A stretch of DNA of 64,000 nt from Phycisphaerae bacterium (GTDB taxonomy: Bacteria; Planctomycetota; Phycisphaerae; UBA1845; Fen-1342). Each line of letters opens with the position of its first letter. Position 1 is the first letter of the stretch. The stretch spans positions 1 to 64,000 of the forward strand of contig JAJVHV010000031.1 of the NCBI GenBank assembly GCA_022072445.1. Reading direction: 5' to 3'. Below, piece by piece: positions 26,065-42,058 of the stretch. The translations under genes and the position numbers were made by a program. The notes beneath the pieces were generated by a model, which was given only the letters and a program-made list of their open reading frames with translations, ran no database searches and was not told the DNA's origin.

Positions 26065-27471
26065 ATGGGTCGAAGCGGGTTTTGCAGGATCGGACTGTTC
26101 GCCGTGCTGACTGGGGCGGCGGGTGCGTCGGGTCAGGTTACGCTGGACCAGGCGTACGACACCGGGGGCGCCGGCCGGGGCCGAACCATCACGGCGGACG
26201 CGGGGATGGTGAGCATTCTTGGGAATGGCGGTTTGGGCAACGGCGGCTTGTGCGTTGAGAGCAACGTGGGGATCGGCAGTTTCGGGATCATGCTCCCGAG
26301 CTATTCGCTGCACATCCAGCATGCGCAGGGGATCATCAACGTCACGAGCACGGCCCGCGTGAATGGCTCGTCGCTCGACCTGCGCAATAACACCGCGTCG
26401 CCAGCGCTGCTCGGGTCGGTGAATTTTCTCAATGCGGCCGCCAGCCCGGTTGGGAGCATCAAGTACAGCGGGCAGAACGCGCTGACGTTTACGACGAACT
26501 CGTCGGAACGTGTGCGGATCGACGCCGCCGGCAACGTGGGCGTCGGCACGGCGACGCCCGAGGCGAGACTCGATCTGCGCGGTCACCTGATCGTCGACGC
26601 CGGCGATCATCCGCGGTTCTTCACCGGTCGCGGAACGGGCGAACTGAATCGCTACTTGCAGCTTCTGAACAGCCCCAGCGCGGCATCGGCCTCGGGTCTG
26701 AAGGCCGGCGGCGTGCTGGTGGCGGACAGCTATGCGTTCGCGAACCCGGGGAAGAACGAACTGGTGGTCAAAGGGCGCGTGGGCGTGGGCATCGGCACGC
26801 CGAGCACCGCGGCCGCGCTGCACCTGACGGGCAGTTCTGGTCCACCAAGCTGGCTGAACGCGACCGACAACGGGCTGCTGCTGGGTTCAGCGGGGACGGC
26901 GAACTACAAGTGGATTCAGAGCTATGGCGGCGCGCTCTGCCTGAACGCGGTCGGCAACAACGTCGGTATCGGCACGACGAATCCGACCGCGACACTTGAC
27001 GTCGCCGGCCGCGTCAAGTGCGACGTGCTGGAAATCCGCGGCGGGAGCGACCTGTCGGAGCAGTTTGACGTTTCCAGCGCGGGCGACGCCGGCGTCGAGC
27101 CCGGCATGGTTGTGTCGATTGACCCGGCCCGGGCCGGCAAGCTGGTCGTCAGCCGCCAGGCGTATGACCGCAAGGTTGCGGGCATCATCAGCGGGGCCGA
27201 CGGCATCAAGCCCGGCATGGTGATGGGGCAGCAGGGCAGCATCGCCGACGGGCAGCACCCGGTCGCGCTCAGCGGCCGCGTCTGGGTCCGATGCGACAGC
27301 ACCCATGGGGCGATCGAGGCCGGCGACATGCTGACGACCTCCGCCATCCCCGGTCACGCGATGCGTGTGGATGACATGATGGCGGCGCAGGGTGCGATCA
27401 TCGGCAAGGCGATGAGCGCCCTTTCCAGCGGGCAGCGCGGCATGGTCCTGGTCCTGGTCAATCTGCAATAA
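26065..27471 (+). CDS. Exported tail-fibre-like protein with VGIGT repeats and shared C-terminal domain
   Basis: A 468-aa protein with signal peptide (GLFAVLTGAAGASGQ). The middle has repeated beta motifs of the kind NVGVGTATPEARLDLRG, VGVGIGTPSTAALHLTG-like, and NVGIGTTNPTATLDVAG, seen in phage tail fibres and bacterial surface adhesins that form triple beta-helices. The last ~155 residues (from VLEIRGGSDLSEQF through GMVVSIDP, DRKVAGIISG, GMVMGQQG, HPVALSGRVWVRCD, GDMLTTSAIPGHAM to VLVLVNLQ) form a domain shared nearly motif-for-motif with the protein at 34005-36497. No phage genes are nearby, so this is a cell-surface protein. It lies 50 bases upstream of the C10 peptidase in the same direction. 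Confidence 0.7.
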   Translation: MGRSGFCRIGLFAVLTGAAGASGQVTLDQAYDTGGAGRGRTITADAGMVSILGNGGLGNGGLCVESNVGIGSFGIMLPSYSLHIQHAQGIINVTSTARVNGSSLDLRNNTASPALLGSVNFLNAAASPVGSIKYSGQNALTFTTNSSERVRIDAAGNVGVGTATPEARLDLRGHLIVDAGDHPRFFTGRGTGELNRYLQLLNSPSAASASGLKAGGVLVADSYAFANPGKNELVVKGRVGVGIGTPSTAAALHLTGSSGPPSWLNATDNGLLLGSAGTANYKWIQSYGGALCLNAVGNNVGIGTTNPTATLDVAGRVKCDVLEIRGGSDLSEQFDVSSAGDAGVEPGMVVSIDPARAGKLVVSRQAYDRKVAGIISGADGIKPGMVMGQQGSIADGQHPVALSGRVWVRCDSTHGAIEAGDMLTTSAIPGHAMRVDDMMAAQGAIIGKAMSALSSGQRGMVLVLVNLQ

Positions 27472-27521: not shown

Positions 27522-29168
27522 ATGCTCGGCACGATTATTCAACGATCGACTTCTGTACGGCTGGCAGTGGGAACTGTGTTGGTGCTGGCAGCCACTTCGT
27601 ACGCGGGCGATCGGAGCGAAGCGGAAGTCCGGTCGGCGGTGGAGACCTGGGTCCGTCGTGAGGCGGCCGTACCGCGTCCCGACGCCCGGATCGAGATGAT
27701 GGAGCCGTACGTCGTGGGCGACCGGGTCGTGGCGTACATCGCGCACCTGGGCGGTGGCGGATTCTGCCTGTGCGGCGCCGACGATCGCCTCTTGCCTGTC
27801 TATTTCTACGCTCCGGAAGGAACGTACGACGCCGACAACGAAATGTGCCGTTTCCTGCTCGACGAAGTCGCCGGACGGGCGATCGCCTTGAGATCCGGCG
27901 ACCTGTCGCGCCGCATCGTGGCGGGGCAGACCGACGCGCTCGCCCGACGGGCAGTGCGCTGGGCCGACCTGATCGCCGGCGGCGACGGCGACGACGGTCA
28001 GTCGAGGGTCAGCGCTCCGGAAAGGGTCGTGCTGCCGCTGACCAGCAACTGGCACCAGAACTCGCCCTACCACGACCAGTGTCCGTTGCTGGGTGCTGAC
28101 CGCGTCAAGGTCGGGTGCGGCGCGACCGCGGCGGCGCAGGTCATGTACTACTGGCAGTGGCCGCCACAGGGCGAGGATGAGCAGGAACACTGCTACGAGT
28201 TTCGCTGGTCGTGGAACTGGGTCAGCGTGCCGCTGGCGAGCGACCCGGGCGGGCTGTCCGGCGATCCGTGGACCGACCGGCTGCGCTACAACGCGGGCAC
28301 GCGCTGCCTCGAGATGAAGGGCTTCTGGGACGACAGCCTGCTCAAGGAGGCGCACAAGATTCACGACAGTGGTATCTGCAATGAGCCGTACACGGTCGGA
28401 TGCGAGTTGTATGACCCGAACCACGCGTTTCATCTCGCGCTGTTCGAGCTGTGGGATGAGCTGGACGAATACTCCGAATGCGACGAGATCGACTTTTCGC
28501 GGCAGACGTACAACTGGGCGCTCATGCGCGACGAGTTTGTCGATCCGAACGACCCGAGCGAGACCGCCGGCCGCCGGGAAGTCGCCAAACTCTGCCATCA
28601 CCTGGGCGTGGCGATCGAAATGGACTGGGGCGTGGATGAATCGTCCACGCTGATCGGCGACGTCAGCGGAGCGATGCAGGACTTCTTCCGCTACGACAAC
28701 GACGAGAGCTGGGGCCTGTGGTTCGACAGCGATGTCACTGAGGAGCTGCGCTTCGGGCGGCCCGTGATTGCGTCAGGGCTCTCGCCGGCCCACATCTGCG
28801 TGGTGCACGGCTTCTGCACCGGCGGTGAGGAGATTCAGTATCTGATGAACCTCGGCTGGGGGGATAAGCCCGGCGACTCGATCCGCAACGGCTGGCACCT
28901 GCTCGACGACGTGTTCAAGGGCTGGCCCGAGGGGCAGATCACCGGCATCGCGCCGCGCGACGTGGTCCGCTTCGTGGGCAACGGCCAGTTCGCGGGCGAT
29001 GGGACGCCGGATGCGCCGTATAACTCGCTCGTCGCTGCGGAGCATGACGCGCCCGCGGGTACGGAGCTGATTCTGCGTGCCAACACGACGTTCTCAGTCG
29101 GTTCCGGTGGAGTCGTGCTGACTCATCCGATGCAGTTGAGTGCTCCCGGCATCGTCATCCAGCGCTGA
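27522..29168 (+). CDS. Secreted C10-family (streptopain-like) cysteine peptidase with beta-helix-like tail
   Basis: A 548-aa exported protein (leader through VLVLAATSYAG). A propeptide precedes the catalytic part. The active-site Cys199 is in KVGCGATAAAQVMYYWQWP, the C10 signature. His424 is in PAHICVVHGF, followed by YLMNLGWGDKPGDSIRNGWH, the usual C10 end of the catalytic domain. A ~60-residue insertion of acidic sequence lies between them. The last ~65 residues (GDGTPDAPYNSLVAA, GTELILRA, LSAPGIVIQR) resemble the tails of the BNR and M23 proteins just downstream. AAGGAG supports the start. It probably degrades extracellular protein, or processes its neighbours (inference). Confidence 0.82.
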   Translation: MLGTIIQRSTSVRLAVGTVLVLAATSYAGDRSEAEVRSAVETWVRREAAVPRPDARIEMMEPYVVGDRVVAYIAHLGGGGFCLCGADDRLLPVYFYAPEGTYDADNEMCRFLLDEVAGRAIALRSGDLSRRIVAGQTDALARRAVRWADLIAGGDGDDGQSRVSAPERVVLPLTSNWHQNSPYHDQCPLLGADRVKVGCGATAAAQVMYYWQWPPQGEDEQEHCYEFRWSWNWVSVPLASDPGGLSGDPWTDRLRYNAGTRCLEMKGFWDDSLLKEAHKIHDSGICNEPYTVGCELYDPNHAFHLALFELWDELDEYSECDEIDFSRQTYNWALMRDEFVDPNDPSETAGRREVAKLCHHLGVAIEMDWGVDESSTLIGDVSGAMQDFFRYDNDESWGLWFDSDVTEELRFGRPVIASGLSPAHICVVHGFCTGGEEIQYLMNLGWGDKPGDSIRNGWHLLDDVFKGWPEGQITGIAPRDVVRFVGNGQFAGDGTPDAPYNSLVAAEHDAPAGTELILRANTTFSVGSGGVVLTHPMQLSAPGIVIQR

Positions 29169-29221
29169 AGCCGGGAAGGTCGAAGCAATCGACTCCGCAG
29201 GGGCTGCATGCACGGCCAAGC

Positions 29222-32011
29222 TCAGTGAATCCGCACGGCGCCGCCGGTGGCCACGACGCGGCCGCGCTTGAAGAAGCGCGTGGTGCCGCTCTCGTCGTAG
29301 TCGGCGGACTCGATCGACAGCAGCGTGCCGTGGCCCGCGGCGCTGATTCCCTCGCTGACGGTGTTGAAGGGGTTGGGTTGCGTGCCGTCCTCGGCGCCAT
29401 TGTTGGCCTTGTCGATGTAGACCGCACCGCGCGTGCGCGTGCGGTACATGCCGCGGCCGAAGGTCGCCGCGACGAGCGTTTCGTCGCCCTGCCAGAACAG
29501 CTCAGACACCTCGACGTTCACCGGTCCGTCGTTGTCGACGTTTCCGAAACGCGGGGTACGGTTCCAGTTCAGCCCTTTGTCCTCGGAGACCAGCACACCC
29601 AGGTCGGTCCCGATGTAGATGAGATTGTCGTTCAGCGGGTGAAAGCGGATCGAACCCACGTGAATCGCGGGCAACGTGTTCTCGCCGCTGCCGGTGCGCT
29701 GCTGCCACGTTGCGCCGGCGTCGTCGGTGAACCAGACGGTGTCGTACTGGTATCCGCCCAGCGTGACAAACACCTGGTCCGGATCCTGGGGGTTGATGGC
29801 GATGTCGGTTACGACGCGGTTGGGCAGCGGGCCGTTGGCGTCGACGTCGACCCACGAGAAGACGCTTCCGCCGTCGGTGCGCGAGATACGGCCGTCCTTG
29901 TAACCCACCCAGATGGTATTGGAGTGGCCTTTTGCAATGTCGATCGCCGAGCAGAACGGATCGCCGCTGACCGGTGGGCGGATCGAGAACCAGGAGGACG
30001 CGGCGTCGACCGTGAGCCAGATGCTCGATCCGCCGGCGATAAGCCGGTTCGGGTTGTTGGGGTCCATTGAGAAGGGAGGGATGAAGTCGGCTCGGGTCTT
30101 GTCGCCCGCGTCGCCGAGGCCGAAGCCCTCGCTGCAATCCGTGAAGGTCTGGCCGAAGTTGGTGCTTTTCTTGATCGCAAGGTACTGAATCTCGGCGTAC
30201 TGGATGGCGGGATTCTCATGGTTGATCGCGGCCCAGCCTCCGTCGCCGCGGAACGCGATGTGCCAGGCATCGGCGCCCTCCTCGGCCCAGTAGCGCGGCG
30301 AGCTGTTGTCCTGCGTGCCGCCGAGCATGAACGTGCCGGTTGGTTCCGTGGCGCCGGCATAGAACTGGGTGATGCCGAGGCCGCGATTGAGATTGCCCCA
30401 ACCGCTGGTCAGGCTGACGGTATAGATGTCGGGGGTCATGTACACGCCGCCGTCGCAGCCGAAGTAGACGCGGCGATTGCCCGGACCGTAGCTGGGGATT
30501 TCGACGATCATGTGATGATCGGGGTGGATCGACACGCCGGAGAGATACTCGGTCCGATCGCTGATCTGTGTGATCGTGACGCCGGCGTCGGCGCTGCGCC
30601 ACAGTTCGATGCCGCCGACGACGACCAGGTTCGCGTCATCCGGCGCGGCCCAGATGATGTTGTCGTAGCCGCCCTGGGTCCCGAGATAGTCAGGCGTGGA
30701 CTTGGTGTTATTGCGAATGGTGAACGACGCGCCGTAGTCAGTGGAGCGCCAGATCGCGCCGCCGCCCGCGTCCATCGAGGCCCACGCGGTGGTGCCGATG
30801 CCCCAGGTGACTTCGACGCGGCCGCCCCGCAGCAGCGCGGCTGCTTCGTTCTTGGCATGGCTGTTCGCGAGGTCCGAGACCTTGAGCGTGTCGGCGTCGA
30901 CGACTTCAGCCACGCTCACCGTCTCAGCGTTGCCGCCGCTCCCGACGCGGATGCTGTCGCCGGCAACGCATCCGCCGGTGTCGAAGACGTGCAGGGTGTC
31001 GTCGTCGGCGTTGCCGTCGGCCGACGTCGCGACGCGGACGGTGGTAGAGAACAGCGTGCCGGAAAAGGCCGACGTTGACCACGTCAGGCCGCCGTCGCTG
31101 GAGTAGAGGATGTCGCCGTTCCAGCGGCCCGCGATCGCCCGCGAGCCGCTTGTGGGATGAAATTTCACGTCGGAGCAATTGTCAGTAGTCATCTGGTCGA
31201 ACGTCTCGCCTCGATCGGCGCTGCGCCAGATGCCGGTCTTGGTGGCCATCAGGATGACGTTTCCGTTGGTCGGACTGACGGCGACGCGCTGGATGAAGGC
31301 GAAACCGTCGCCGGGGCCGGGGACGATCAGCTCGGTGCCGGGAACCAGCGCCCAGGTGACGCCGCGATCCTCCGAGCGGAACAGGCCGGCGCCCGGCAGA
31401 CCGTTCCACCAGTGTCCTTCGCCCGTTCCGGCGTAGATCACGTCGGGGTCGGTCGGGTCCTGAATCATGCAGCCGATGGCCAGGCTGGGCAGGAAGTCGT
31501 TGACGGGTGTCCAGGAGAATCCGGCGTCGTCGGAGCGCCACACGCCGCCGGAGACGCTTCCGATGAGCAGCGAGTCGTCGTCGAGAAAGACGATGCTGCG
31601 GACGCGTCCGCCGACGTTTCCGGGGCCGAGGTATTCCCAGCTCCAGATTCCGCCGTCGGCAATGCCGCCCTCGCCGCCGTCGAGCGCGTCGGCGTGCAGC
31701 TCCGGAACGGCCTGCATCTCGCGCCAGGCGCGTTGCAGCGCGTCGCTGCGGATCGTCCCATCGTCGTCGAGCCTGCGGCTGCGGCGGTAGTCGAGCGCGA
31801 GCCGACCGCCGGTGGCTTCACGGCCGGGCGTGGGCTCGCCGGCGCCGCCGATGCGGGCCGGCGCGATCGTCACTGAATCTGCCGGCGCATGTGCGTGGCG
31901 CTCAACGGTCGCGCGCTGCGTCTGTGCGCGGCAGCCGCCGAGCGCGGCGACGATGAGCATGGCGTACAGGCAGGTTGCCGCGGGCCGGCGCGTCGACTTC
32001 GATGCGTGCAT
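29222..32011 (-). CDS. Lipoprotein with BNR/VPS10-sortilin-like beta-propeller
   Basis: A 929-aa lipoprotein (lipobox VAALGGC, Cys27). From ~residue 125 it carries many sialidase-type Asp-box/BNR repeats (SVSGGVWRSDDAGFSWTPVN, GAGLFRSEDRGVTWALV, GIWRSADRGETF, ILYSSDGGLTWS, VLVSEDKGLNWNRTP), giving a sortilin-type multi-bladed propeller. No sialidase catalytic residues were recognised, so binding is likelier than hydrolysis. The last ~65 residues (VYIDKANNGAEDGTQPNPFN to VVATGGAVRIH) are nearly the same as the end of the neighbouring M23 peptidase, a shared C-terminal module. It lies 84 bases downstream of that gene in the same direction. Confidence 0.8.
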   Translation of the reverse strand: MHASKSTRRPAATCLYAMLIVAALGGCRAQTQRATVERHAHAPADSVTIAPARIGGAGEPTPGREATGGRLALDYRRSRRLDDDGTIRSDALQRAWREMQAVPELHADALDGGEGGIADGGIWSWEYLGPGNVGGRVRSIVFLDDDSLLIGSVSGGVWRSDDAGFSWTPVNDFLPSLAIGCMIQDPTDPDVIYAGTGEGHWWNGLPGAGLFRSEDRGVTWALVPGTELIVPGPGDGFAFIQRVAVSPTNGNVILMATKTGIWRSADRGETFDQMTTDNCSDVKFHPTSGSRAIAGRWNGDILYSSDGGLTWSTSAFSGTLFSTTVRVATSADGNADDDTLHVFDTGGCVAGDSIRVGSGGNAETVSVAEVVDADTLKVSDLANSHAKNEAAALLRGGRVEVTWGIGTTAWASMDAGGGAIWRSTDYGASFTIRNNTKSTPDYLGTQGGYDNIIWAAPDDANLVVVGGIELWRSADAGVTITQISDRTEYLSGVSIHPDHHMIVEIPSYGPGNRRVYFGCDGGVYMTPDIYTVSLTSGWGNLNRGLGITQFYAGATEPTGTFMLGGTQDNSSPRYWAEEGADAWHIAFRGDGGWAAINHENPAIQYAEIQYLAIKKSTNFGQTFTDCSEGFGLGDAGDKTRADFIPPFSMDPNNPNRLIAGGSSIWLTVDAASSWFSIRPPVSGDPFCSAIDIAKGHSNTIWVGYKDGRISRTDGGSVFSWVDVDANGPLPNRVVTDIAINPQDPDQVFVTLGGYQYDTVWFTDDAGATWQQRTGSGENTLPAIHVGSIRFHPLNDNLIYIGTDLGVLVSEDKGLNWNRTPRFGNVDNDGPVNVEVSELFWQGDETLVAATFGRGMYRTRTRGAVYIDKANNGAEDGTQPNPFNTVSEGISAAGHGTLLSIESADYDESGTTRFFKRGRVVATGGAVRIH

Positions 32012-32095
32012 GTGTATGACCTCATGGGTAAACGTTGGCAGTCATCCTTCGCGCTGCTCGCCGCCTGACGCGTGGCGAGCGCGGCGCATCGGCGA

Positions 32096-33961
32096 TCAGT
32101 GAATCCGAACGGTGCCGTTGGTCGCGACGACCCAGCCGCGCTTGTCGAAGCGCGTCGTGCCGCTCTCGTCGTAATCGGCGGCTTCGATCGAGAGAATCGA
32201 GTCGTCGCGAAGCACGGCGAGCCCTTCTTGCACCGTGTTGAACGGGTGCTCAAACGTGCCGTCCTCGCAGCCGCTGTTGGCCTGGTCGACGTAGACGAAG
32301 TCGGCGGCCCGCGCGACGGTCAGGCGGTAGTCGGTCGCGGCACTGCGCGTCGAATCGACGTTGGTCACGGCGATGAAGTAGGCGCCGCCGTCGAGGTTGA
32401 GCCATAGCCGCTCACGGGCGCCCGCGATCGGCGTGGTTCCGCCGCCAGTCGGATTCAGGACGCGCAGGTCTTCGGTCAGGACGTAAACGTCGAGGTTCTG
32501 CCCGCCGGAGAAACAGGACAGCTCGATGCGCACCTCGTCGGGCCCCGGCAACTCGAAGCGGAACACGTCTTCAATTCCATCGCCGCGGATCGCGAGATCG
32601 CCCACGATGGCGTGCTCCAGCGTGGCGCCGACGCTGGCCGGAAGGCTGAGCGAGTTGTGCAGCGCGAGCGTGTGGTTGGGTTCGACTTCGTCGCCATCAA
32701 CAGCCTCGTTCGGCGGCGGCGGATCGAAAGCGGGCAGGACGGTAAAGGTCGAACCGGACGTGATGCCAACCTCGAGCTGGCGGCGCGGGAAGAGCTGTCC
32801 CGGGCTGGTGAAACTGACGTTCGTGAAGTAGATCGGGAGCGCCTGTGCCCCCGAGTCGTCAGGACTGGGGTGGTCCACAGTCTGAAAGTGCAGGTGCGGG
32901 CCACCTGAGCTGCCGGAGTTGCCGGCCTCGCCGATGGCGTCGCCCTGAACGACGTTCTCGTTGCACGTTCGAAAGTCGTTCGAGCCGGTGATGAAGTGGG
33001 CGTAGAACGACCATTCGCCGTTGTCGTGCTCGATGCACACCATGTTTCCCCCGCCGGGGATGCCGTCCGACGGTACGACGCACGGATCGCTGGTGGTCCC
33101 GTCGCAGCGCTCCGGCAGGCAGTCGCCGATTCCGGGCTGCTTGGTGCCGGGTGGGCTGTTTTCCGGGTGACCGGTCTCGTTGACGACGATCGAGCCGGCG
33201 GCGAGCGCGATCACCGGCTGACCATAGATGAAGTGCCCGTCATTCTCATCGCATGGGTCGCAACCGTCGCCGTCGACTCGGATGCCAACGTCGTACGCGT
33301 AGCGCTGGTTGAAAGCCGTACGATGCGCACTGCCAAGATCGTGCGCATTCCCGACTCTGTACACGCCGCCGGCAACCAACGGCTCACCCAGGCCAAACAG
33401 GTACGTGTCGCCCGCCGGCGGCCGATACTCGACGATCTCGATACCCAGAAAGCTGAGCGGCGTTGCAAACCCGTCGAGGAACAGATCGATCCGGGCACTC
33501 GCCGCAAGGACGTTGTGGCCCAGGACTTCGTCGGGGCACGGCAGCAGAATGCGCGAGTGGATGGGAATGACGGCGTTTCCGTCGCCGTCGATCCAGATTT
33601 CCTCGGGCGGATCAGGCTGCTGCGGGTCGTCGCCGTCGCGCAGCTCGCGCGCAAACTGCTCGAGGACGGCGGGTGTGAAAAACGTTGGCGGCTCGACCGG
33701 GTTGCCCTGTGCGTCGAAGAACTCCACCTGGCCGCCGGTGCACGTCAGCTCCATGGCCGGCGTGCTGAAGATCACGTCGAACGACACGTGGTTCTCGAGC
33801 GGATAATGTTCGATCCAAGACGGCCCGTTCGGCAGCAGGCCGGTGCGTACGATGCCGGATCCGGGCGGAATGATGACCTGGAACTCCGCGGCGGACCGGC
33901 CGGCGCTGAGCAGCGAGAGCAGCAACGCCGTGCACGCACGAAGGATGTTGGCGCGAGGCAT
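32096..33961 (-). CDS. Secreted M23-type peptidase with pre-peptidase (PPC) domain
   Basis: A 621-aa protein with signal peptide (MPRANILRACTALLLSLLSA). The M23/LytM zinc peptidase region includes RYAYDVGIRV, VPSDGIPGGGNMVCIEHDNG, WSFYAHF and PHLHFQ (His356 and His358). It probably cuts peptidoglycan or peptides. It is followed by a PPC-type beta-sandwich (DVFRFELPGPDEVRIELSCF, LDVYVLTEDL, GAYFIAVTNVDS) and ends with the shared tail VYVDQANSGCEDGTFEHPFN to VVATNGTVRIH. A cysteine-rich insert (DGDGCDPCDEND) splits the first metal motif. ATG 33961 with GAGGA upstream is preferred to the in-frame GTG at 33976. It probably shares a transcript with the BNR gene. Confidence 0.82.
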   Translation of the reverse strand: MPRANILRACTALLLSLLSAGRSAAEFQVIIPPGSGIVRTGLLPNGPSWIEHYPLENHVSFDVIFSTPAMELTCTGGQVEFFDAQGNPVEPPTFFTPAVLEQFARELRDGDDPQQPDPPEEIWIDGDGNAVIPIHSRILLPCPDEVLGHNVLAASARIDLFLDGFATPLSFLGIEIVEYRPPAGDTYLFGLGEPLVAGGVYRVGNAHDLGSAHRTAFNQRYAYDVGIRVDGDGCDPCDENDGHFIYGQPVIALAAGSIVVNETGHPENSPPGTKQPGIGDCLPERCDGTTSDPCVVPSDGIPGGGNMVCIEHDNGEWSFYAHFITGSNDFRTCNENVVQGDAIGEAGNSGSSGGPHLHFQTVDHPSPDDSGAQALPIYFTNVSFTSPGQLFPRRQLEVGITSGSTFTVLPAFDPPPPNEAVDGDEVEPNHTLALHNSLSLPASVGATLEHAIVGDLAIRGDGIEDVFRFELPGPDEVRIELSCFSGGQNLDVYVLTEDLRVLNPTGGGTTPIAGARERLWLNLDGGAYFIAVTNVDSTRSAATDYRLTVARAADFVYVDQANSGCEDGTFEHPFNTVQEGLAVLRDDSILSIEAADYDESGTTRFDKRGWVVATNGTVRIH

Positions 33962-34004
33962 GACGGTGGTCCTCACAGGGTTGTTCCCTTGCGCATGACT
34001 GGCG

Positions 34005-36497
34005 TTACTGCAGGTTGACCAGCACGAGCACCAGGCCCCGTCCGCTTTCCAACGCCGTCATGGCCTTGCCGATCACGGCCCCGTCGCGCTGTTCGCGATC
34101 GGTCGCTTTCATCGCGTGGCCGGGCGTGCCGGACGTGGTCAGCAGATCGCCGGGCTGGATCGCCCCATCCGACGCGTCACACCAGCAGTACACGCGGCCG
34201 GTGAGCGCGACGGGGTGCTTGCCGTCGGCGGCGGTGCCGCGCTGCCCCATGACCATGCCCGGACTGACGCCGCCGGCCCCGCTGATCACGCCGGCGACCT
34301 TCGCGTCGTACGCGTGCTCGGAGAGCTTGAGCTGCCCTGGTCGTTGCGGGTCGATCACGACGACCATGCCCGGCGCAATCGGGGTGTCAGCCGACGCCCG
34401 ATCGCCAGCCGCCGCGCCGTCGCCGGCGCTGATCGCAAACCCTTCGGACAGGTCCGCGCCGCCGGTGATTTCAAGCACGGTGCACTTGATGTCGCCGGCG
34501 ACTTCGAGCCGTGCGTCGGGCGAAGACGTGCCGATACCCACGTCGCCGCCCGGTTCGATGAGCAACATGGTGGTGTTGTTCGAGTAGTTCGGGTCGGTGC
34601 CGTACTTGAAGATCAACTGGCCGCCCGAGCCGGAGGTGTTGCGCACCATCGTCCACTTATCGACCAGATCGCCACCAGTGATTTCGCCCAGGCTGATCGC
34701 CGAGCCGCGCGAGCCAGTTTCGCTGCTGTAGATGCCGATCACGGCGTCGTCATCCTCGACGACGACGTCCTCGTTCGACAGGGCGCTGGCCGGGAGCCCG
34801 ATGTCGTTCACTCTGGTTTTCAGCGCCACGCCGCCGCCCGTGTTCTCAAAATAGCCTGCCAGGCCGTTGACGCTGGTGGTGGTGCCCCAGACGCCGTAGC
34901 TCGTGCCCGTCTCGGAAAAGTCGAACACCTCGCCCTTGACCGCGGCAAGACCGCTAAACGTCAGCCCGTGCACGCCGATCTGCGACCCGGAGCCGCCGGA
35001 GACACCGTACCAGTCCTCGGAGTAACCGTAGATCGCGCCATCGCTGGTCGGATCCTCCACTTTCAGGCGGAATGACGTCGGGTCGTCAATGTCGGCGCCG
35101 ATGAAGACCTGGCCCGCGTTCTTGATGATCATCTGATCGTGGCCGCCGGTGCCGAGGATCATGTCCGCGGGATAGTCATTCATGATCTCGAGGACGTTTT
35201 CGCCGCTGCGGTAACCGAGCTTGGCGGTGACCTGCCCGCCGTCCTGGCGCAGGACGAGGCGCGCGTTCTGGTCTTCGCCGCCGGCGTTGTTGGTGTCGGC
35301 GTCGACGATCAGGTCGATGCCGTCCTCACTGGAGATGTGCAGCAGGCTCTCAGGGGCGCTGCGACCGATTCCGACGCGCGACACGCCGCTGTCGTCGTTG
35401 GGGAAGAGCAAAACGCTGCCGCCGCCGCGGTTCAGATTCAGCGTGCTGGCTGTGCCGTCGCCGCGCCGCGCCATGACGTCGGTGGTGTCGAACGCCAGGT
35501 GCGGCGACGTGGTCGGCCCGATAACGAGGTAGCCCCCGCCGGCTAGATTCGCATTGGTGCCATTGTCGAGGTGTAGCTTGAAGTCGGGAAAGCGCGTTCC
35601 GATGCCCGTGTTGCCGAGATTCGAGTTGTAGATGTCGTCGGCGTCGGCAGTCCAGAGCGAATTACCCGCGGCGGTAGTTTGAAGCGTGCCGTCCGGAAAT
35701 CGGATGCCGTCGACGCCGGCGGTCCCGCCGACGTGCAGCTTCGCATTCGGCGTGGTCGTCCCGATGCCGACCTTTCCGTCGGCGGCGATGGTTAGCTTCG
35801 GGCCGCCGAACGTATAGAACGTGTGCGTCGACGCAGCGCCGTCGAAGCGATAGGCCGGGTCTTCGTTGGAGGCGGAAAGAAGCAACATGTGGGTCGTGAA
35901 ATAAACGCCTGCCGCCGCGTCGTCGTACACGTTCAGTCCGCCGCCCTGTACTTGCAGCTTCGAGGTCGGCGCGCTCGTGCCGATGCCCACGTTGCCGTCG
36001 TTGTCGACGAAGAGCGCGTCGGCCGGGCTGCCGTCAGCCGCGTCGAGCGAATGACCGTCCAGCCCCGCCGGAACGCCGGTCAGGCCGCTCCAAGGGGCCT
36101 TCAGCGCGTAGCCGGCGTGCGGCGAGATGGTCAGTTCCTGGCGCCCGGCGAGCTGCGTGAAGCCGCCGATGCCCTGGCAATTCTGGCTCTGGCCAGGATC
36201 GGGTCTGATCGAGATTTCGAGATACACCCGGTTCCCATTCAGCACGTTGCTTTCCGGGTCGAGCGTGACGGTGAAGAGCCCATCGACGACGTTAACGTCG
36301 TTGACGCATTCAAAGTCGATGCTGGCCCCGCCGCTCGCAGCACGGTAGAAGTTGACGCGGATGTCGTAGATGCCGTTGGCGGGGCTGCCATTGTCGTCGA
36401 GCCGGCCTTGATAGGTGAAAATGTCCGTCAACGGCGTCTGTGCAACCACGCCGGGAACGACGAGCAGCGAAATGAGCACCGTGGTGAAACGTTTCAC
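34005..36497 (-). CDS. Exported tail-fibre-like VGIGT-repeat protein with shared C-terminal domain
   Basis: An 830-aa protein. The start is GTG at 36495-36497, preceded by AAGGAG and opening a signal peptide (VKRFTTVLISLLVVPGVVAQ); the frame is open 116 codons further up but without meaning. Residues ~20-125 form an N-terminal domain (FTYQGRLDDNGSPANGIYDI, VNVVDGLFTVTLDPES, LEISIRPD) also found in the next gene. Then come many VGIGTSAPTSKLQVQG, VGIGTTTPNAKLHVGG and VGIGRSAPESLLHISS motifs. The last ~170 residues (VLEITGGADLSEGFAIS to VLVLVNLQ) match the C-terminus of the 26065-27471 protein. It is a probable fibrous surface protein. It starts 53 bases after its paralogue upstream. Confidence 0.72.
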   Translation of the reverse strand: MKRFTTVLISLLVVPGVVAQTPLTDIFTYQGRLDDNGSPANGIYDIRVNFYRAASGGASIDFECVNDVNVVDGLFTVTLDPESNVLNGNRVYLEISIRPDPGQSQNCQGIGGFTQLAGRQELTISPHAGYALKAPWSGLTGVPAGLDGHSLDAADGSPADALFVDNDGNVGIGTSAPTSKLQVQGGGLNVYDDAAAGVYFTTHMLLLSASNEDPAYRFDGAASTHTFYTFGGPKLTIAADGKVGIGTTTPNAKLHVGGTAGVDGIRFPDGTLQTTAAGNSLWTADADDIYNSNLGNTGIGTRFPDFKLHLDNGTNANLAGGGYLVIGPTTSPHLAFDTTDVMARRGDGTASTLNLNRGGGSVLLFPNDDSGVSRVGIGRSAPESLLHISSEDGIDLIVDADTNNAGGEDQNARLVLRQDGGQVTAKLGYRSGENVLEIMNDYPADMILGTGGHDQMIIKNAGQVFIGADIDDPTSFRLKVEDPTSDGAIYGYSEDWYGVSGGSGSQIGVHGLTFSGLAAVKGEVFDFSETGTSYGVWGTTTSVNGLAGYFENTGGGVALKTRVNDIGLPASALSNEDVVVEDDDAVIGIYSSETGSRGSAISLGEITGGDLVDKWTMVRNTSGSGGQLIFKYGTDPNYSNNTTMLLIEPGGDVGIGTSSPDARLEVAGDIKCTVLEITGGADLSEGFAISAGDGAAAGDRASADTPIAPGMVVVIDPQRPGQLKLSEHAYDAKVAGVISGAGGVSPGMVMGQRGTAADGKHPVALTGRVYCWCDASDGAIQPGDLLTTSGTPGHAMKATDREQRDGAVIGKAMTALESGRGLVLVLVNLQ

Positions 36498-36550: not shown

Positions 36551-38113
36551 CTACTGCCGGATCATTCTGTCGAGCGCGCACGACGCGTCTGTCCGCGCGC
36601 CGGTGCGTACGGCATTGATGCCGCGGCTCTCCGGCTGCCCGAACGCGTCGGGATGCAGGTAGCTGCCGCGCAGCGCGGCGGGTTTGTCCTGCTCGATGGG
36701 AATGCGATGTGCGTTGGCGAAGGCGTCCTGCCGCACGCCCGTGATCTGCCACGAGACCTCGAGTTTCGGCGTGCCGCCGGCGATGCGAAACTGGTTCGCC
36801 GTGACCTTCTCGGCGACGTAAACCGGCGCGAAGCCGCCGATGCACGTGAGTTGATAGCGGAAGTCGCGGTTGAGCGCCTCGAACCAGTCGGGCAGCGTGA
36901 CGGTCGCCTCGCCGCGCTCGTCGAGCACCACGTTGCCGTTGTAGATGTTCATCATGTCGGGCGATTCGACAAACGAGTGGTAGAGGTACTTGTTCTGCGG
37001 GTCGAGTGGGTGGTCGATCTTGAACGAGCCGCCGCCTTTCGACAGCGTGCCGTTCACCTCCACGTCGTCCTCGAAGTAGCAGTTTCCGCCCGCGGAGTAG
37101 ATCGCGTAGTTGACCTCGCTCGCGAAATCCTGGTCGGCCAGATAGATGCCGTAGTTCGTCGCCATCGCGCCGACGTGGTCGGGCGAATCGACGTAGATAC
37201 TGGTGTTCAGCGTGGTTGAGCCGGCGGCGTCCTCCTGACCGGAGCGGACGTAGAATCCGCGGTTTTCGAGAATGGTGCCCGACCCGCTGCCCAGCGAGAT
37301 TGCGGCTCCGGCCTGCTGAAAGTCGACGCTGCCCTCGCGCAGCGTCTGTGCGATGAAGCCGCCGCCGACCATCGTGTCGACCGTTCCGCTGCCATAGTGA
37401 AACGTTCCGAAATACTGACCGTTGAGAAAGCCAAAGTCGGTCGCGTTTCCTTCCGGGACGATCAGCTCGAAGTCTGCTCCATACATGGAGAAGTTGAACG
37501 CCGCCAGGGCGGGATTGAACGTCACGAAGGCGCGGAGCGGCGTCCAGGCCAATGCGTCGGGCAGATCGGTCACCAGCAGTGACAGGTCGACGAGCTTATC
37601 GTAGTACCCTTCCGGACCGATTACCGACGCATTGCCCAACGCCGCACGCTGCGATACGCGCAGATCACCCGCGACGTCCAGCTTCGCGCCCGGAGATGAT
37701 GTCCCGACGCCGACGTTGAGCGACCCGTCTACGCTGATGCCGCGCGTCGCGCTGCTCCAGATCGCCAGCGGCGAGGCGGTCAACTCCTGGCGCGGGACGA
37801 GAGGCGTTCCCTCCACGCTGATCTCCAGCCAGCGCGGCGCGCCGTTGAAGACCGTTGGCGTCGCGACGCCGAAATCGAGCGGCACCGTGAACAGCCCGTC
37901 GGTCACCTGCACCGTCTGCGAGTCGGTCGCCAGCGGCGATCCGCCGCTCAGCACGTCGTATGCGGCAAACTCCATCGCGTAGAGGCCGTCCGGCGCCGGT
38001 TCGCCGTTTTGCCGCAGCGCGCCCTGATACGTCCAGCGATCGGCGGCGTATGCGGCGAGGAGCAGGGGGGCGGTGTAAAGCATGGCGACAGCGAGGGGGG
38101 TGACGCGTTTCAT
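36551..38113 (-). CDS. Exported VGVGT-repeat surface protein with conserved C-terminal domain
   Basis: A 520-aa protein with signal peptide (MKRVTPLAVAMLYTAPLLLA). Residues ~25-120 repeat the N-terminal domain of the 34005 protein (WTYQGALRQNGEPAPDGLYA, VTDGLFTVPLDFG, LEISVEGTPLVPRQELTASP). One VGVGTSSPGAKLDVAG motif follows. The C-terminal ~120 residues (GGSFKIDHPLDPQNKYLYHS, FVESPDMMNIYNGNVVLDER, LPDWFEALNRDFRYQLTCIG, WQITGVRQDAFANAHRIPIE) form a strongly conserved domain that I recognise from many environmental bacterial surface proteins but cannot name. GGAG precedes the ATG. It is the first gene of a minus-strand run down to 29222 and diverges from the ECF/kinase operon. Confidence 0.72.
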   Translation of the reverse strand: MKRVTPLAVAMLYTAPLLLAAYAADRWTYQGALRQNGEPAPDGLYAMEFAAYDVLSGGSPLATDSQTVQVTDGLFTVPLDFGVATPTVFNGAPRWLEISVEGTPLVPRQELTASPLAIWSSATRGISVDGSLNVGVGTSSPGAKLDVAGDLRVSQRAALGNASVIGPEGYYDKLVDLSLLVTDLPDALAWTPLRAFVTFNPALAAFNFSMYGADFELIVPEGNATDFGFLNGQYFGTFHYGSGTVDTMVGGGFIAQTLREGSVDFQQAGAAISLGSGSGTILENRGFYVRSGQEDAAGSTTLNTSIYVDSPDHVGAMATNYGIYLADQDFASEVNYAIYSAGGNCYFEDDVEVNGTLSKGGGSFKIDHPLDPQNKYLYHSFVESPDMMNIYNGNVVLDERGEATVTLPDWFEALNRDFRYQLTCIGGFAPVYVAEKVTANQFRIAGGTPKLEVSWQITGVRQDAFANAHRIPIEQDKPAALRGSYLHPDAFGQPESRGINAVRTGARTDASCALDRMIRQ

Positions 38114-38271: not shown

Positions 38272-38850
38272 GTGGAATCGCGCCACCCAGAGAACGTGAC
38301 GCATCTGCTGGCCGCCATGCGCGCCGGCGACGGAGATGCTGCCAACCGGTTGTTACCGCTTCTGTACGACGAATTGCGGTCGGTTGCCCGCCGGCTACTC
38401 AGCCGCGGGCGACGCGACCACACCCTCGAGACAACCGCCCTGGTGCATGAGGTCTACCTTCGTCTGATCGGGGCCAGCGCGACCGAGTGGCGGGACGAGG
38501 CACACTTTCTTGCAGTCGCCTCGAAGGCCATGCGGCAGATTCTCATCGACCACTTTCGCGCCCGCAAAGCGGTCAAGCGGGGAGGGGACTACACCCGCCT
38601 TCAGCTTTCCGATGATTTCATCGAGTCGCTTGACCGGAATGACGGCGTTCTTGCGTTGAATGATGCGTTGGATCGCCTTGCGGTCGAGTTGCCGGAGCAC
38701 GCTCAGGCCGTAGAGATGCGGTTCTTTGGCGGCATGGCGCCCGCCGAGATTGCCGTGGCACGCGGTGCGAGCGAACGCACCATCCGGCGTCAGCTCGCCT
38801 TTGCCAAGGCGTGGCTGCGGCGAGAATTGGCGCCCACTGACCAGGGCTGA
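38272..38850 (+). CDS. ECF-type sigma factor (Sig-70_X6 / planctomycete ECF group)
   Basis: A 192-aa protein of the ECF subfamily common in planctomycetes and acidobacteria (TIGR02999-like). Characteristic stretches are MRAGDGDAANRLLPLLYDEL, ETTALVHEVYLRLIG, FLAVASKAMRQILIDHFRAR and, in region 4, AVEMRFFGGMAPAEIAVARG followed by SERTIRRQLAFAKAWLRREL. The GTG at 38272 is needed to keep the usual N-terminus (VTHLLAAM). This group is typically encoded next to Ser/Thr kinases and is thought to be regulated by phosphorylation rather than by a classical anti-sigma factor. Here the kinase gene follows after 4 bases, a direct example of that arrangement. Confidence 0.9.
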   Translation: MESRHPENVTHLLAAMRAGDGDAANRLLPLLYDELRSVARRLLSRGRRDHTLETTALVHEVYLRLIGASATEWRDEAHFLAVASKAMRQILIDHFRARKAVKRGGDYTRLQLSDDFIESLDRNDGVLALNDALDRLAVELPEHAQAVEMRFFGGMAPAEIAVARGASERTIRRQLAFAKAWLRRELAPTDQG

Positions 38851-38854
38851 ACGC

Positions 38855-41800
38855 ATGTCCGGTGCCGTCGACCTGAAACGCGTGGCGGCGATCTTCGAGG
38901 AAGTGCACGAGCTGGATCGCTCGGAGCGCGGGCGGTTTCTCGATCAGGCCTGTGCCGGCGATCCGCGGCTTCGGGCCGAGGTCGACGCGCTGCTGTCGCT
39001 GCACAAGACCCATCATTCGGATGGCGCCGGAGCGCATGTTGACCGTCACGAGCCGGGCGTGCTGCCGCCGGACTTGATCGCCGGCTACGAGCTTGTGAGC
39101 GAGATTCACCGCGGTGGGCAGGGCGTCGTCTATGAGGCGCTTCAGCAGTCAACCGGCCGGATCGTAGCGCTGAAGGTCATGCGCGAAGGCCCGTTCGCCG
39201 GCCCGCGCGATCTGGCGCGCTTCGAGCGCGAAGTTCACGTTCTCGGCCAGTTGCGGCATCCCAACATCGTCGCCATCCACGACAGCGGCTCGACCGCGGG
39301 TCACTTCTACTTCGTCATGGACTACATCGCGGGCCAGCCGCTGGACGTGTACATGGCGGCCCGGCGCCGCGCGCTGCGCGAGACGCTCGCCTTGTTCGCG
39401 ACCATCTGCGAAGCGGTGAACGCGGCGCATGTACGCGGCATCGCCCACCGCGACCTCAAGCCCGGAAACATCCGCGTCGACCAGGCCGGCCAGCCGCACA
39501 TCCTCGACTTTGGATTGGCGAAGATCGCGGAGATGAGCGCCAGGGAGGCTGGCGCGCCCGCTCGCGACGACTCCCCCGCTCCGCTGGGGCAGCGCCTCGC
39601 GCCGCGCCCGCGCGCCGCCGCGCCGGCCGATGCCCCGCTGGCTGCTGCGCCCATGACCGCCACCGGCCAGTTCGTCGGCAGCGTTCCCTGGGCGTCGCCG
39701 GAGCAGGCGGCTGGCTTGCCAGGCAGAATCGATTTGCGAACCGACGTGTACTCGCTGGGTGTGCTCGCGTTCCACATGCTGACGGGCCGATTTCCCTACG
39801 ACGTCGGCGGCTCGTTGGGCGACGTGCTCGACCGCATCGCCAACGCCGAGCCGCCGCCGCCGAGCCGCGTCTCGCGCGGTCTGGCGCCGCCCAGCTTCGT
39901 CGCCGGCACGATCGACGACGACGTCGACACCATCGTCCTCAAGTGCCTCGCCAAAGAGCGCGACCGCCGCTACCAGAGCGCCGGCGAAGTGGCCCGCGAG
40001 GTGCGCCGCTATCTCGCGGGCGAGCCGATCGAGGCCAAGCGCGACAGCGGCTGGTACGTGCTGCGAAAAGCGATCGTTCGGCATCGGCTCGCGTTCTCCG
40101 CCGCGGCGGCGTTCGTCCTGCTCCTGGCGGTGGCCACCGCGATTCTCAGCTTTTCCTACGCGCGCGAGTCGCGCCTGCTGGGCGAAGTCCGAACCCAGCG
40201 CGATCGAGCCGTCGCAGCCGAGCGCGACGGCCAGACGCGGCTGTCCGAGCTGACCGCGGCGCGGGCCGACGAGCAAGTCGCCCTGCTTCAGGCTCAGCGC
40301 GTGAACAAATTTCTGACCGATATGCTGGCGGCCGCGAATCGCGCCGAGCAAGGCGGCCGACCCGACGTGACGGTTCGCGAACTGGTCGAGCTGGCGGCCC
40401 GCGATCTTGACGACGGCGCGCTGCGCGACGAGCCGCAGGTCGAAATCGGCGTGCGCGACACGCTCGGCGCCGTCTACCGCGCGCTGGGGATGAACGACGA
40501 AGCCACCTGGCACATGCGCGCCGCGCTCGACCTCCGCCGCCGGACCCTCCCGGAATTAAGCCGCGACACCATGATGAACATCGGCGACCTGGGACTGCTC
40601 GCGGCGGATCGCGGCGACCCGGCGACGTCCGAGCCATTGCTTCGCGAATCGCTGGCTTTGGCCCGCCGCTTGTTCACCGGCGACCAGCGCGACCTGACCG
40701 TCCCGATGAACAATTTGGGTTCATTCCTCTTGCGGCACGGCAAGCTGGCCGAGGCCGAGGCGCTCCTCCGGGAGTCGCTCGAGATTCGCCGGCGAATTCT
40801 CCCCGCTGACGACCTCGACGTCGCCCTGGCCGCCGGCCAGTACGCGCAGGTGCTGGTTCAGCGTGGCCGCTACGCCGCCGCCGAGCCCCTGCTGCGCGAG
40901 ACAGTCGCGACCTACCGCGCGCGGCTCGGCCCGGAGCACCAGCGCCTCGCGACCGTGCTGAGCGCGCTGGCCAACCTCCTCCAGACGCGACATCAGCTCG
41001 CCGAGGCCGAGCAACTGTTTCGAGAAGCTCTGGCGATCGGCCGCAAGCTCCTGGGCGACGACCATGCCCACGTCGCCCAGACGCGCAACAACCTCGGCAC
41101 GCTGCTCTACGCCGCCGGCCGCTTCGACGAGGCCGAAGCCGAACTCCGCGAGTCGCTGCGCGTTCGCAGGATCGTCCATCCGCCCGGGCATCCGGAGATC
41201 GCCGAAAGCGTCGGCAACCTGGCCGCGGTCTTGTGGCAGCGCGGCCGGCTCGACGAGGCCGAGCCGCTCTGGCGCGAGGCGCTCGACACGGCCCGCACCG
41301 TCTTCGGCGAGCGGCACTCGCGCACCGCCACCTGCCTCAACAACCTGGGCGTGTTGCTGATCGACCGCAAGCAGTTCGACGAGGCCGAAACGCTGCTCAA
41401 CGAGGCGTGCGAGATCGAGCGCGGACTTTTTGGCGATCGTCACCCGAAGGTGGCCGCCACGCTGCACAACCTGGCCCGCAATCACGAGCACCAGGGACGT
41501 CTGGAGCAGGCCGAGGCCGAGTTCGTCGAGGCGCTCGCCATCCGCCGTGAGCACCTGACTGCCGCGCACCCCGAGGCACTCAGCTCGCTCCGCAGCCTCG
41601 CCAACGTCGTCGCGCGGCGCGAGCGGTTCGCCGAGAGCCGCCAACTCTGTCACCAGTGGCTCGAACTCGCCAAGCAGCCTCGGCCGGCCGACCACCTCGA
41701 AGTCCGGCGGCTGCTCGGCCGCAACGAGCTGGCAGCGTGCGACTTCGTCGCCGCGGAGCAATCCTTGCGGGCTTGCATCGAGCTGCATTCCGCCGAGAGC

Positions 41801-42058
41801 CTGCCGCGCTGGCGCCGCGGATACGACCGGATGTTGCTCGGCGTGGCGCTGGCCGGGCAGCAGCGTTGGAATGAGGCGGCCGAGTCGTTTGAGGAGGGCT
41901 GCGCCTTGCTCTCCGCCGCCGACACGCCGGCCGATCGCTGGCGCGAGATCGCCGATCACCTCGCGGGACTCACCGGCGACGCGGTGGGCGAGTTCTCCGC
42001 GGAGCGCTGGTGCGCGCTGCTGCTCAGCGCGCAGCGCCCTGCCCAGCCGGGAGACTGA
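38855..42058 (+). CDS. Membrane Ser/Thr protein kinase with C-terminal TPR array (kinase 1)
   Basis: A 1067-aa Hanks-type kinase. An N-terminal helical segment (AAIFEEVHELDRSERGRFLD) precedes the kinase domain (~78-375). The domain has Gly loop RGGQGVVYEA, Lys107 in VALKVM, catalytic HRDLKPGN with Asp200, and DFG at 218-220, so it looks active. A Pro/Ala-rich insert (PRPRAAAPADAPLAAAP) follows DFG. One membrane span lies near 412-434 (LAFSAAAAFVLLLAVATAIL). The remaining ~600 residues are tetratricopeptide/NPHP-type repeats (EAEALLRESLEIRRRILPAD, EAEQLFREALAIGRKLLGDD, EAEPLWREALDTARTVFGER). It starts 4 bases after the sigma gene. Likely an envelope receptor kinase acting on the sigma factor (inference). 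Confidence 0.93.
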   Translation: MSGAVDLKRVAAIFEEVHELDRSERGRFLDQACAGDPRLRAEVDALLSLHKTHHSDGAGAHVDRHEPGVLPPDLIAGYELVSEIHRGGQGVVYEALQQSTGRIVALKVMREGPFAGPRDLARFEREVHVLGQLRHPNIVAIHDSGSTAGHFYFVMDYIAGQPLDVYMAARRRALRETLALFATICEAVNAAHVRGIAHRDLKPGNIRVDQAGQPHILDFGLAKIAEMSAREAGAPARDDSPAPLGQRLAPRPRAAAPADAPLAAAPMTATGQFVGSVPWASPEQAAGLPGRIDLRTDVYSLGVLAFHMLTGRFPYDVGGSLGDVLDRIANAEPPPPSRVSRGLAPPSFVAGTIDDDVDTIVLKCLAKERDRRYQSAGEVAREVRRYLAGEPIEAKRDSGWYVLRKAIVRHRLAFSAAAAFVLLLAVATAILSFSYARESRLLGEVRTQRDRAVAAERDGQTRLSELTAARADEQVALLQAQRVNKFLTDMLAAANRAEQGGRPDVTVRELVELAARDLDDGALRDEPQVEIGVRDTLGAVYRALGMNDEATWHMRAALDLRRRTLPELSRDTMMNIGDLGLLAADRGDPATSEPLLRESLALARRLFTGDQRDLTVPMNNLGSFLLRHGKLAEAEALLRESLEIRRRILPADDLDVALAAGQYAQVLVQRGRYAAAEPLLRETVATYRARLGPEHQRLATVLSALANLLQTRHQLAEAEQLFREALAIGRKLLGDDHAHVAQTRNNLGTLLYAAGRFDEAEAELRESLRVRRIVHPPGHPEIAESVGNLAAVLWQRGRLDEAEPLWREALDTARTVFGERHSRTATCLNNLGVLLIDRKQFDEAETLLNEACEIERGLFGDRHPKVAATLHNLARNHEHQGRLEQAEAEFVEALAIRREHLTAAHPEALSSLRSLANVVARRERFAESRQLCHQWLELAKQPRPADHLEVRRLLGRNELAACDFVAAEQSLRACIELHSAESLPRWRRGYDRMLLGVALAGQQRWNEAAESFEEGCALLSAADTPADRWREIADHLAGLTGDAVGEFSAERWCALLLSAQRPAQPGD

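Follow-up and report, generated by a model that had tools for sequence, protein, structure and literature searches.

A small C-terminal module of secreted planctomycete and acidobacterial enzymes and its gene pairing with phage-fibre-like proteins

What might a closely similar stretch of about 65 residues be doing at the ends of three neighbouring secreted proteins? The question is raised by a Phycisphaerae bacterium (assembly GCA_022072445.1), and specifically by the window analysed here, the whole 64,000-nucleotide stretch at positions 1-64,000 of contig JAJVHV010000031.1. An earlier note on this DNA had pointed to a C-terminal module shared by a C10 peptidase, a BNR lipoprotein and an M23 peptidase. 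This report presents evidence that genes carrying the module, also called the tag below, are paired with genes for phage-tail-fibre-like proteins, and weighs a reading considered just about probable: that the module is a small autonomous docking domain that would mount enzymes on the co-encoded fibre.

The three carriers in the window are of different types. A secreted C10 (streptopain-type) peptidase is encoded on the plus strand at 27522-29168 (Pfam Peptidase_C10, 2.9e-31). On the minus strand lie a BNR/sortilin-type beta-propeller lipoprotein at 29222-32011 (Pfam Sortilin-Vps10, 1.4e-21, and BNR_6) and an M23 peptidase at 32096-33961 (Pfam Peptidase_M23, 7.5e-12), which includes a weak PPC-like domain (0.0024, below the cut-off) and whose open reading frame (ORF) opens at 33976 with a GTG. 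A test profile built from 56 tails of other loci, with no window sequences among them, was searched against the 542 window ORFs and matched exactly three of them, in each case at the C-terminus: the M23 peptidase (32099-32299, minus strand; E 2.5e-18, 68 bits), the BNR protein (29225-29425, minus strand; E 2e-16, 63 bits) and the C10 peptidase (28962-29165, plus strand; E 6e-6, 27.6 bits, or 28 when rounded). A thousand shuffles of each tail reached at most 8-9 bits, and those of the C10 tail no more than 8. The near-identical ends reported for the BNR and M23 proteins are indeed present, with 66% identity between them, and the weaker copy proposed for the adjoining C10 peptidase is a true divergent member, since its profile score lies far above the shuffles. 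The tails had been located correctly in the earlier account; the C10 gene, as it turns out, is convergent with the other two, and the meaningful unit extends beyond the three genes, because fibre-like genes on either side of them belong to it.

The first of these, fibre 1, occupies 26065-27471 on the plus strand, has a signal-like N-terminus and lies upstream of the C10 peptidase gene across a gap of 50 bases. Fibre 2 is found at 34005-36497 on the minus strand, directly upstream of the M23 gene and then the BNR gene; its longest ORF begins at 36845, but a signal-like N-terminus argues for a start at 36497, and the protein begins with an N-terminal TYQG domain. Both proteins match the phage tail-fibre family PHROG 9942 (1e-12 for fibre 1, 3.9e-19 for fibre 2), which relates their shafts to tail fibres, and a Pfam search of both gave no match. 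They share a conserved C-terminal domain of about 150 residues ending VLVLVNLQ. In fibre 1 it spans 27019-27468 (plus strand, ending GMVLVLVNLQ; family profile), with 64% identity to its counterpart in fibre 2, which spans 34008-34487 (minus strand, ending GLVLVLVNLQ; sequence profile and comparison with fibre 1). A sequence search of the Protein Data Bank (PDB) with this domain returned nothing significant.

The arrangement in the window recurs widely. The survey of tags covered 27 genomes of the family and a phylum sample of 392 genomes, with counts taken from the loci examined. In 18 of the 21 first loci the tag genes come after a fibre gene that shares their strand, and the same order is seen in other planctomycete families. 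A search for the fibre domain, run independently of the tag across the 27 family genomes, found it in 16; the other 11 yielded no tag match or, where the best match was opened, an internal beta-helix start. Among canonical fibre genes of the family with room left on the contig, 31 of 37 have a tag gene directly downstream, and two further pairs were recognised by eye (a divergent tag in locus L129 and an N-terminal one in L134). In the window genome the fibre genes of this kind number exactly three, each with tag genes behind it; in the second cluster of that genome (locus L056, contig C14:128500-136100), a single fibre gene accompanies those for four tag proteins, M43 and M12B peptidases among them. 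Strong fibre matches occur in 13 genomes of the phylum sample. When the best tag match was opened in 30 phylum genomes, a fibre was present in 9 of the 10 with a C-terminal tag, and a strong fibre in none of the 20 with internal copies only (p 7e-7, from a manual tally).

The pairing extends to a second phylum. A strict-pattern wide scan of genome contigs recovered three loci, one of them acidobacterial, and the acidobacterial genome so found contains two adjacent tag genes, together with a single strong fibre match whose gene lies upstream of one for a subtilase-like protein. Across 396 genomes of Acidobacteriota, a tag gene stands next to 6 of 8 canonical fibres and to none of 12 non-canonical ones, which are more distant relatives. 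Over all sets a tag gene is next to 53 of 68 canonical fibres, as against 2 of 22 of the non-canonical ones (p 9e-9). The genetic pairing of tag genes with fibre genes can be regarded as close to certain, and it is restricted to one fibre type. Genes behind two non-canonical fibres (ending GQILVLVTLQ), at L141:3124-4677 and L143:5125-6666, share a different C-terminal ending, RIxIQGGGMKINGGGEMVIR, which might represent another type of tag, belonging to another clade of fibres.

The proteins that carry the tag are unrelated in their remaining domains and span several planctomycete families as well as Acidobacteriota. Most are proteases, with C1, C10, S1, S8, M12A (astacin), M12B (reprolysin), M23, M43 and Trypsin_2 domains; non-peptidase carriers include beta-lactamase-fold proteins, BNR/sortilin propellers, and FG-GAP and BACON proteins. 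By a crude test, a signal-like N-terminus is present in about 77% of the long tag proteins and in 30% of other long ORFs. Fibre proteins are themselves without the tag. An uncharacterised secreted protein family also bears it (L058, L064 and L056:8468-9796), its copies in L058 and L064 having no canonical fibre gene alongside. Full-length matches end 0-12 residues before the stop codon in 86 genes, mostly 0-4, so the description of the module as a C-terminal tag on secreted proteins is usually right. It is not so throughout: in L134:2676-3992 and L119:89-775 the module stands on the N-terminal side of an endonuclease/exonuclease/phosphatase (sphingomyelinase-like) domain, the former gene lying directly behind a fibre gene, and in L199:2973-4781, again behind a fibre gene, an astacin domain is followed by the module and then by the acidobacterial Soli_cterm domain (TIGR03437, 3.8e-41).

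As for what kind of structure the module forms, no Pfam or NCBIfam model was placed on the tails, or on the fibre C-terminal domains, of the window proteins. The nearest Pfam models over 28 tails are DUF1565 (6 of the 28 members, best 4e-4) and Pel9A-like beta-helix, and a profile search of PDB sequences returned a phage tailspike (8fqc, 9.6e-7), a xylosidase (1.7e-4) and a rhamnogalacturonan lyase (0.0018). The AlphaFold model of the M23 tail (pLDDT 87) can be aligned from end to end with the first coils of proteins of the beta-helix class, including Pel9A and pectin methylesterase; the structure matches, with Z of 7.1 against a phage 7-7-1 fibre and 4.7 against the pectate lyase Pel9A, are modest, Z being below 8. 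Taken with the sequence match, the clear reading of this predicted fold is the N-terminal cap and first coil of a right-handed beta-helix, which bears out, from both sequence profile and model, the earlier guess of the first turns of such a helix. Several stacked coils are not found, and since the tagged proteins end after about one coil, the module would be related to the beta-helix enzymes (Pel9A, pectin methylesterase, rhamnogalacturonan lyase; the DUF1565 and Pel9A-like_beta_helix models) without being a full member of them. It matches their cap and first coil, yet has no catalytic coils, is normally C-terminal and falls in a largely separate group on the tree.

This fit to the start of beta-helix enzymes is also what would be expected if the tails were relics of full-length enzymes of that class, or C-terminal caps that merely stabilise the protein they end. 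The module is nevertheless conserved end to end across many genera and on unrelated enzymes. Long beta-helix proteins match mainly its positions 1 to about 48, often near their own N-terminus, and then continue into further coils. In a tree that combines 75 tags with 27 internal copies, tags and helix starts part company, with 7 label changes against 19-27 in shuffles. Behind the window tags no decayed remainder can lie, because the next genes start only 53-84 bases past them. Degraded beta-helix relics are rejected by the position of the tags near the stop codon in 86 genes, the separation on the tree and the want of room downstream, and the wider explanation, stabilising caps included, is very improbable. 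The module does not occur mainly inside full beta-helix enzymes, the circumstance under which the tag reading was to fall, and that reading stands.

The docking reading starts from what the analysis shows: the existence of the module, the range of unrelated enzymes on which it occurs, the fold predicted for it, the pairing of the genes and the restriction to one fibre type. Each locus encodes a tail-fibre-like protein, usually with a TYQG N-terminal domain, then a repetitive shaft and the conserved C-terminal domain ending GLVLVLVNLQ, and directly downstream of it one to four secreted enzymes with the tag. Fibre and enzymes would both be exported, and the fibre would assemble; the tag would then bind it, the probable site being the conserved C-terminal domain or else an exposed beta-helical end that the tag would cap. 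The outcome would be a surface or extracellular fibre loaded with enzymes, mainly proteolytic ones.

Two other ways of relating enzyme and fibre must be set beside docking. The fibre, instead of being a stable scaffold, may act as a chaperone or an export partner that is required solely while the tagged enzymes are being secreted or folded, much as in two-partner systems; the gene order, fibre first and one fibre to several enzymes, would suit this. The fibre nonetheless has a signal-like N-terminus of its own and a long repetitive shaft typical of fibres, and the Pfam search of the window fibres recognised no translocator domain, which leaves this explanation improbable. Alternatively, the module could be a domain that binds carbohydrate or matrix and retains enzymes close to their substrate or in a biofilm, the fibre being co-regulated with them and not their receptor. 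Beta-helix coils are found in polysaccharide-active proteins, and the flexible position of the module in the protein agrees with such a role, but the pairing with one fibre type and the preference for peptidases would then go unexplained; this is unlikely, if less so than the chaperone.

The strongest of the competing explanations is a sorting or secretion signal in the manner of the type IX C-terminal domain (CTD; Por_Secre_tail): a dedicated machine would recognise the module, carry the enzyme through the outer membrane and perhaps cleave or anchor it, with the fibre as a client or accessory. The usual position of the module, 0-4 residues from the stop codon on many unrelated secreted peptidases, does recall known sorting CTDs, and the type IX CTD is likewise a C-terminal domain of about 70 residues on diverse secreted peptidases, C10 among them. 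The predicted fold of the module differs from it, however, and the module is not strictly C-terminal; occasional N-terminal or internal copies, in intact-looking proteins, argue against a signal recognised at the protein end. The type IX secretion component SprA was matched in 0 of 27 genomes, in a search that was equally silent on the control genome. The link to a particular secretion gene that had been sought leads elsewhere: the linked gene encodes the fibre-like protein with its signal-like N-terminus, and no recognised secretion component was seen beside the tags.

Among C-terminal sorting systems in the literature are PEP-CTERM (PMC1569441), GlyGly-CTERM (PMC3237569) and myxosortase (PMC11980579). 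PEP-CTERM, with its exosortase, is similar in being a C-terminal homology region on secreted planctomycete proteins, but the tag sequences inspected contain no PEP motif, transmembrane segment or basic C-terminal end, and exosortase is present in 26 of the 27 family genomes, with or without the tag. PEP-CTERM is rejected on the tail sequence and on this distribution, which does not follow the tag. The earlier proposal of a sorting or matrix-attachment signal distinct from PEP-CTERM was correct as to the distinction, while a sorting signal tied to a secretion gene is not supported in that form; attachment to a matrix or fibre is its better half. Docking is favoured over a sorting signal because the partner of the tag is a fibre-like protein, and one with a single type of C-terminal domain, because the position of the tag is flexible (N-terminal in L134 and L119, internal in L199), as that of a binding domain could be, and because exosortase is present regardless of the tag; SprA is unmatched too, with the control silent. 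Sorting is a minority explanation, unlikely but ahead of the other rivals.

Several observations weigh against docking. The structure model of the fibre C-terminal domain (pLDDT 40) is too poor for a fold search, and apart from the effect of belonging to one genome, similarity among fibre domains does not go with similarity among their own tags (Mantel r 0.09, within-genome p 0.14); the unusable model and this lack of pair-specific co-variation are what hold docking at about an even chance. About 21 of the 86 tag genes lie outside any fibre run, some of them at contig edges, and no tag gene can be seen beside a few of the canonical fibres. Tag matches guided part of the choice of planctomycete loci beyond the family, a bias in those counts that leaves the figures for the family and for Acidobacteriota cleaner.

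As a kind, the arrangement resembles tag-and-scaffold systems made from different parts. If docking holds, it would share with the dockerin-cohesin pairs of the cellulosome one small domain on many enzymes and genes beside a large non-catalytic secreted protein. The differences are that the module is a predicted beta-helix coil, that the enzymes are mostly peptidases, and that the present system is known from gene pairing, with binding inferred; no dockerin or cohesin Pfam match was found in the tag proteins or window fibres. Phage tail fibres and tailspikes are the other point of comparison. The fibre partner matches PHROG tail-fibre families and the tag profile a tailspike (8fqc), whereas the window fibres are chromosomal, signal-bearing and set in runs with enzymes, and no phage genes were recognised in the stretch read around the window genes.

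No prior description of the tag or the fibre was found in the open-licence literature, and an earlier account elsewhere is possible. The order of tag and fibre genes suggests that enzymes are mounted on extracellular fibres in a way not yet described. More tentatively, and at somewhat less than an even chance, Planctomycetota and Acidobacteriota may possess an undescribed system of enzyme display, in which phage-fibre-like surface filaments carry interchangeable peptidases and hydrolases, each held by a beta-helix plug of a single coil; such a system would be the proteolytic equivalent of the cellulosome, assembled from unrelated parts. How these bacteria handle extracellular enzymes is poorly known, though both groups are important degraders. 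A fibre-targeting tag, if real, would make a hidden part of their secretome traceable by sequence. Tag and fibre would also form a two-component system open to testing, and would supply protein engineers with a new small docking pair.

The minus-strand run in the window begins with a third gene, at 36551-38113, which has the TYQG N-terminal domain without the conserved C-terminal domain; it was assigned by its position and by the FIB_N profile, which was built with this gene. Scans for sigma-70 promoters and terminators found sites no commoner than in shuffles. Genes with only the TYQG domain, like this one, also flank loci L133, L151, L156, L203 and L205. Adjoining the start of the run, and read by eye from the ORF list, are a sigma-factor-like gene (38272-38850) and then a Ser/Thr kinase gene with TPR-like repeats (38726-42058, plus strand), a typical planctomycete regulatory pair that may regulate it.

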